DNA of 51,252 bases from Pseudomonadota bacterium (GTDB lineage Bacteria > Pseudomonadota > Alphaproteobacteria > SHVZ01), in the NCBI GenBank assembly GCA_016195085.1, contig JACQAG010000016.1, forward strand, positions 1 through 51,252. Reading direction: 5' to 3'. The translations under genes and the position numbers were made by a program. Under the pieces are notes generated by a model. The model made no database searches, had not been told where the DNA came from, and was given only the letters and a program-made list of their open reading frames with translations. Of this stretch, positions 50,158 to 51,252 are shown in pieces. How positions within the stretch are numbered: position 1 is the stretch's first letter; each line of letters starts with the position of its first letter.

Positions 50158-51252
50158 ATGGCGAAGAATACAATCGGCAAGATCAAGCAGGTGATCGGCG
50201 CGGTCTGCGACGTGCAGTTCGAAGGCGATCTGCCGCCGATCTTGAACGCGCTCACGGTGGATAACCAGGGCCGCAAGCTGGTGCTCGAGGTGGCGCAGCA
50301 TCTGGGCGAGAACATGGTGCGCACCATCGCCATGGATACGACTGACGGGCTGGTGCGCGGCCAGGACGCGGTCGACACCGGCGGTCCGATCACCGTGCCG
50401 GTCGGGCCGGAGACCTTGGGGCGCATCATCAACGTCATTGGCGAGCCGGTCGATGAGCGCGGGGTGGTCACCACCAAGAAGCACTCGCCCATCCACAGGC
50501 CGGCGCCGGAATTCGTCGAGCAGTCGACCGAGGCGCAGGTGCTGGTCACCGGCATCAAGGTCGTCGATTTGCTGGCGCCCTACGCCAAAGGCGGCAAGAT
50601 CGGGCTGTTCGGCGGCGCCGGCGTCGGCGAGCGCACCCGCGAGGGCAACGACCTCTATCACGAGATGATCGAGTCGGGCGTGATCAAGCTCGACGGGCCT
50701 GGCTCGAAATGCGCGCTGGTCTACGGACAGATGAACGAGCCGCCGGGGGCGCGCGCCCGGGTCGGCCTGACCGGCCTCACCTTGGCCGAATACTTCCGCG
50801 ACGATGAGGGCCAGGACGTGCTGCTCTTCATCGACAACATCTTCCGCTTCACCCAGGCGGGCTCCGAGGTCTCGGCGCTGTTGGGCCGCATTCCCTCGGC
50901 GGTGGGCTACCAGCCGACCCTGGCGACCGACATGGGCACGCTCCAGGAGCGCATCACCACCACCAAGAAGGGCTCGATCACCTCGGTGCAGGCCATCTAC
51001 GTGCCGGCCGACGACTTGACCGACCCGGCGCCGGCCACCTCGTTTGCGCATCTGGACGCAACCACGGTCTTGAGCCGGCAGATCGCCGAGCTCGGCATCT
51101 ACCCCGCGGTCGATCCGCTCGACTCGACCTCGCGCATCTTGGACCCCAAGATCGTCGGCGAGGAGCACTACGGGGTCGCGCGCGCGGTGCAGAAGATCCT
51201 CCAGCGCTACAAGGACCTCCAGGACATCATCGCCATCCTCGGCATCGACGAG
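50158..51252 (+). CDS. atpD: ATP synthase F1 subunit beta, partial, lacking the Walker A lysine segment
   Basis: The first 365 codons run to the window edge. Start ATG 50158 gives [16 protein letters not shown]; in-frame ATGs at 50143 and 50146 are alternatives. Most motifs are intact: [35 protein letters not shown] (Walker B region) and [15 protein letters not shown]. However GLFGGAGVG at residues 149-157 is followed directly by ERTREGND. In other beta subunits about 26 residues, starting with the P-loop Lys-Thr and ending in a second AGVG, lie between. The loss is in frame. As written the protein could not bind catalytic nucleotide normally, so an assembly collapse is likely. Confidence 0.93.

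Follow-up and report, generated by a model that had tools for sequence, protein, structure and literature searches.

The gene for the F1 β subunit (atpD) at the end of the analyzed DNA lacks 26 internal residues (78 bases), including the Lys-Thr of its Walker A motif, and this loss is very probably an artefact of assembly at a fragmented, conserved gene. In the cell itself, the β subunit is most likely an ordinary one whose P-loop is intact. The window, i.e. the whole stretch of DNA that was analyzed, is the entire 51252-base contig C16 of a draft assembly of 95 contigs (4.81 Mb), a genome that is probably metagenome-derived, and it stops inside atpD. An artefact is preferred because the loss lies 624 bases from this contig end, which conflicts in sequence with the end of a second contig, and because it falls in a gene where the assemblies of relatives also break.

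The atpD reading frame (50158–51252, forward strand) comprises 365 residues, has no stops, and is open at the contig end. Against TIGR01039 (F0F1 ATP synthase subunit β), it scored 625 bits (cut-off of 462.85) in two matched stretches; the intact β subunit of a family relative (locus L115) scored 846 bits. The junction, read from the sequence and from the ORF translation, is GGC GGC GCC GGC GTC GGC GAG CGC ACC CGC (50611–50640), giving an incomplete Walker A motif of GGAGVGER as compared with the complete GGAGVGKT, which in the β subunits of relatives is followed by a helix. Downstream of the junction, the residues ERTREGND are retained and the reading frame is preserved. Both of the alignments listed against solved F1 structures were split in two at the junction site. 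An initial annotation of this DNA had described an in-frame loss of Lys-Thr with about 26 residues (about 78 bases); this description holds, and the length is exactly 78 bases when measured against 108 intact loci.

The genes upstream of atpD were also examined. The F1 δ gene, atpH (PF00213, 155.7 bits), lies in an ORF at 46587–47450 (+) in which the family match spans residues 112–280, so the front of this ORF is probably not coding. It is followed by atpA (F1 α; 47447–48979, +), which matches PF00006 across the full profile and has its own P-loop, GDRQTGKT, and by atpG (F1 γ; 49018–49923, +), which matches PF00231 at 326.5 bits. A palindromic CATGCCCGGACTTGGTCCGGGCATCCACG element, REP-like in our reading, has copies at 49957–49985 and 35726–35754 (0 and 2 mismatches, respectively) and gave no match in 100 shuffles; the copy at 49957–49985 sits between atpG and atpD.

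Alignment of atpD with relatives, as suggested in the initial annotation, showed the 78 bases to be kept almost throughout. The segment GG[AG]GVGKT...ERTREG was present in 108 of 109 relatives' loci (L006–L114, both strands), with a GVG-to-GVG distance of exactly 78 bases in all 108. These were the best-scoring loci, 29 of them from the 60 relatives searched and the others the best 80 of 593 stretches, and they were counted as loci, some perhaps from near-identical genomes. The protein pattern of the junction was found in 1 of 385 genomes of the class (own genome included), namely the present one. A deletion common to relatives was thus not found, either among the 109 loci or as the junction pattern in the 385 class genomes. 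The sole exception among the loci, L069 of Pelagibacteraceae AG-910-C11 (CACGLL010000001.1), shows an in-frame loss of another stretch at the β P-loop (L069:3394–3468, AKGGKTVTIMEL), with 11 residues missing, apparently between short GGAAAAA-like repeats. The isolate name resembles the names of single-cell genomes, and an amplification artefact is possible in that case.

The same comparison bears on the idea of a functional β variant that works without the Walker A Lys-Thr. The preserved frame and the retained ERTREGND would be expected of such a protein, but the change is no mere substitution: the entire end of the P-loop is gone, with the stretch that follows. With the pattern unique among 385 class genomes and the gene placed at a contig end, a functional variant is hardly conceivable.

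The ends of the missing segment were then compared at the DNA level. The string gccggcgtcggc, which encodes AGVG, lies at 50617–50628, where the initial annotation had placed it, and together with the preceding c forms a 13-base string, CGCCGGCGTCGGC (50616–50628, +). In two loci of the same family, L007 and L008, these 13 bases flank the segment corresponding to the missing 78 bases on both sides; in the other two of the four same-family loci, the both-side match is 12 bases (L006) and 6 bases (L009). Across all 108 intact loci, 13 bases are shared across the segment in 13 and none in 42. The expectation in the initial annotation that the string stood at both ends of the missing piece is therefore borne out in L007 and L008, and a doubling in the present genome would follow by analogy. 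If the genome did carry the repeat, the length lost equals one repeat-to-repeat unit; the corresponding distance measures 78 bases in each of 108 intact loci. Graph assemblers usually work with words longer than 13 bases, so a plain collapse at this repeat is not automatic.

The operon is not otherwise intact, as had been supposed initially: C16 ends inside atpD, and atpC is found on another contig, C71 (141472 bases), which likewise breaks off within atpD. The piece on C71 encodes the 136 C-terminal residues. After it come atpC (PF02823) and then a desaturase/rubrerythrin-like gene that matches PF03405 and PF02915 weakly; the protein of this last gene is 73% identical to its counterpart in L115. 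In L115, the order is atpH, atpA, atpG, atpD, atpC, and this counterpart. The order atpH-atpA-atpG-atpD on C16 and that of the atpD piece and atpC on C71 agree with it, and on the basis of this complementary gene order a single operon appears to be divided between the two contigs. Their ends overlap over 159–160 bases of atpD with a DNA identity of 77.5% and a protein identity of 72%. If C16 and C71 do carry one gene, at least one of the ends is wrong or foreign, and the contig end together with the overlap identity is then a sign of misassembly near the junction that is independent of the loss itself. Other assemblies of the family were also broken in this gene. Among six family relatives, atpD was full in G002, G004, and G006 and cut by a contig end in G001 and G003; G005 gave a distant match of 32% identity only. 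The contig of G003 (7685 bases) ends 90 bases past its GVGKTV match.

To either side of the junction, atpD resembles its family, with DNA identities to family relatives of 83–85% before it and 85–88% after it, and both immediate flanks match at 88–98% in 45-base bins. Two 45-base bins of low identity (51139–51228, +) lie inside the part of C16 that conflicts with the C71 end. Here C16 is 68–72% and C71 64–69% identical to the family, as compared with 89–94% within the family; C16 is at 91% just before these bins and at 88% just after. In the C71 piece, the bin farthest toward the C-terminus is also low, at 63.6% versus 91.1% within the family. The first 160 bases of the atpD piece at the C71 end (L120:6314–6473) differ from C16 and from the family, and the next 120-base bin is 91–92% identical to the family. 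For comparison, two intact genes of C16, atpA and atpG, were treated in the same way; identity in them drops by 22.8 and 27.8 points, versus 22.6 in atpD. Since intact genes drop as much or more, the drop at the C16 end was rejected as evidence that this end is foreign; neither end's drop proves foreignness, and the conflict of C16 with C71 is all that counts. A search of the 385 class genomes gave no near-identical source for the C16 end (463 bases; 308 of 385 matched, best 87% besides itself) or for the C71 end (234 bases; 272 of 385 matched, best full-length match 82%, next to a single partial match that reached 86% across 140 bases). The absence of such a source in these 385 genomes, the native-looking flanks of the junction, and the preserved frame are among the points that stand against an artefact.

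A search of the genome for a second atpD, also suggested in the initial annotation, gave no complete copy in the assembly. No second complete F1 β subunit was found by protein search, PF00006, or Walker A pattern, and the pattern search found no GVGKTV site anywhere in the assembly. The searches found atpA, a gene on C54, the junction atpD on C16, and, on C71, the piece encoding the β C-terminus. The C54 match was rejected as a β copy because it is the flagellar export ATPase FliI (TIGR03498). The C71 piece was seen by protein search and missed by PF00006, a model restricted to the nucleotide-binding domain. In a control for the GVGKTV pattern, 19 of 21 genomes (own genome included) gave a match, those without being the present genome and G005; by comparison of positions, the match was placed in atpD in 18 of 20 relatives, and in G001 it lies on a different contig from the atpD piece. 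The assembly has one α subunit only. A few relatives carry two β-like genes (e.g. G039, G048, and G057), so a second β gene, different from that on C16, could end in the C71 piece. The smallest contig among those sampled is 2513 bases, so the missing stretch of atpD may sit on a smaller contig that never entered the bin.

These results also bear on a real in-frame deletion of 78 bases, brought about by slippage at the 13-base repeats or by recombination between them. On the sequence, such a deletion would have inactivated the catalytic site; F1 catalysis depends on the Walker A lysine. The gene would then be either the sole β gene or one of two, with C71 holding the end of a second, intact β gene whose front is missing from the contigs. 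The loss equals the inter-repeat length in L007 and L008, its flanks are native, and the sequence of the C71 piece departs from that of C16 across 160 bases, as would be expected of a second β gene. Against this, the assembly holds a single α subunit and no second complete β subunit, the segment is kept in 108 of 109 loci, C16 and C71 are complementary halves of the L115 gene order, and the gene sits at a contig end; we consider a real deletion unlikely. That the organism's only β subunit should be truly dead catalytically, with F-type ATP synthesis given up or the complex used without β catalysis, would be a very improbable outcome.

The disagreement of about 22% between the contig ends over 160 bases could also arise if the bin mixed two organisms, or if C71 or C16 were a contaminant, with the intact atpD of one of them missing. 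Composition was therefore compared by tetranucleotide distance, for which 11 other contigs of the 95 were sampled and nine used, C20 and C40 being dropped as too short; C71 itself was counted among the nine when C16 was compared. Mean distances to the other contigs were 0.119–0.129 for C16, 0.109–0.126 for C71, and 0.151 for the last 6.5 kb of C71, and three family relatives lay at 0.161–0.187. C16 and C71 are thus near most of the sampled contigs and below the family relatives, which is weak evidence against a mixture because binning itself commonly uses signals of the tetranucleotide type. The estimated contamination of the assembly is 0.4, the gene orders of the two contigs are complementary, and a mixture by itself would leave the 78-base loss unexplained, making this explanation quite improbable. 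Contig C1 of the present genome's assembly (G000; L181:1–20000) was an outlier, with a G+C content of 0.618 and a tetranucleotide distance of 0.219, and may be a mobile element or a contig assigned to the wrong bin.

An artefact at the broken end of C16 is thus the preferred reading, and a course of events can be proposed for it. The DNA of atpD, conserved among members of the community, probably broke the assembly, and hence C16 and C71 would both end within atpD with disagreeing sequence. Near the broken C16 end, the two flanks would have been joined via CGCCGGCGTCGGC, with the 78 bases omitted; the genome itself would once have had this string twice, and the bases would have been lost by a join or a chimeric read rather than by the living genome. 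Since common assembler word lengths exceed 13 bases, a chimeric molecule or gap closing based on overlaps would be likelier than plain graph collapse. The initial annotation had likewise favored a loss between direct repeats, by assembly collapse rather than in the organism. The 78-base length, the string doubled in relatives, the lack of a second complete β subunit in the assembly, the contig break, and the conflicting ends all speak for that view; its undivided operon is not retained, and the mechanism is one that we infer. An in-frame loss between short repeats appears deceptively clean, and atpD is a site where assemblies of this family break. Where a draft genome seems to encode a dead catalytic site, contig ends should be checked before physiology is deduced.

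As compared with known systems, the atpD product resembles the β subunits of TIGR01039 in its score above the cut-off and in the gene order atpH-atpA-atpG-atpD. It differs from them in that 26 residues, comprising the Walker A Lys-Thr and the stretch next to it, are gone and in its truncation at the contig end; the missing end of the P-loop is read as an artefact and not as a family difference. The case also resembles the class of deletion and misjoin artefacts at short direct repeats in draft assemblies: here too, one repeat-to-repeat unit would have dropped out of conserved DNA close to a contig end, and the responsible step could lie with the assembler, the library, or the polymerase.
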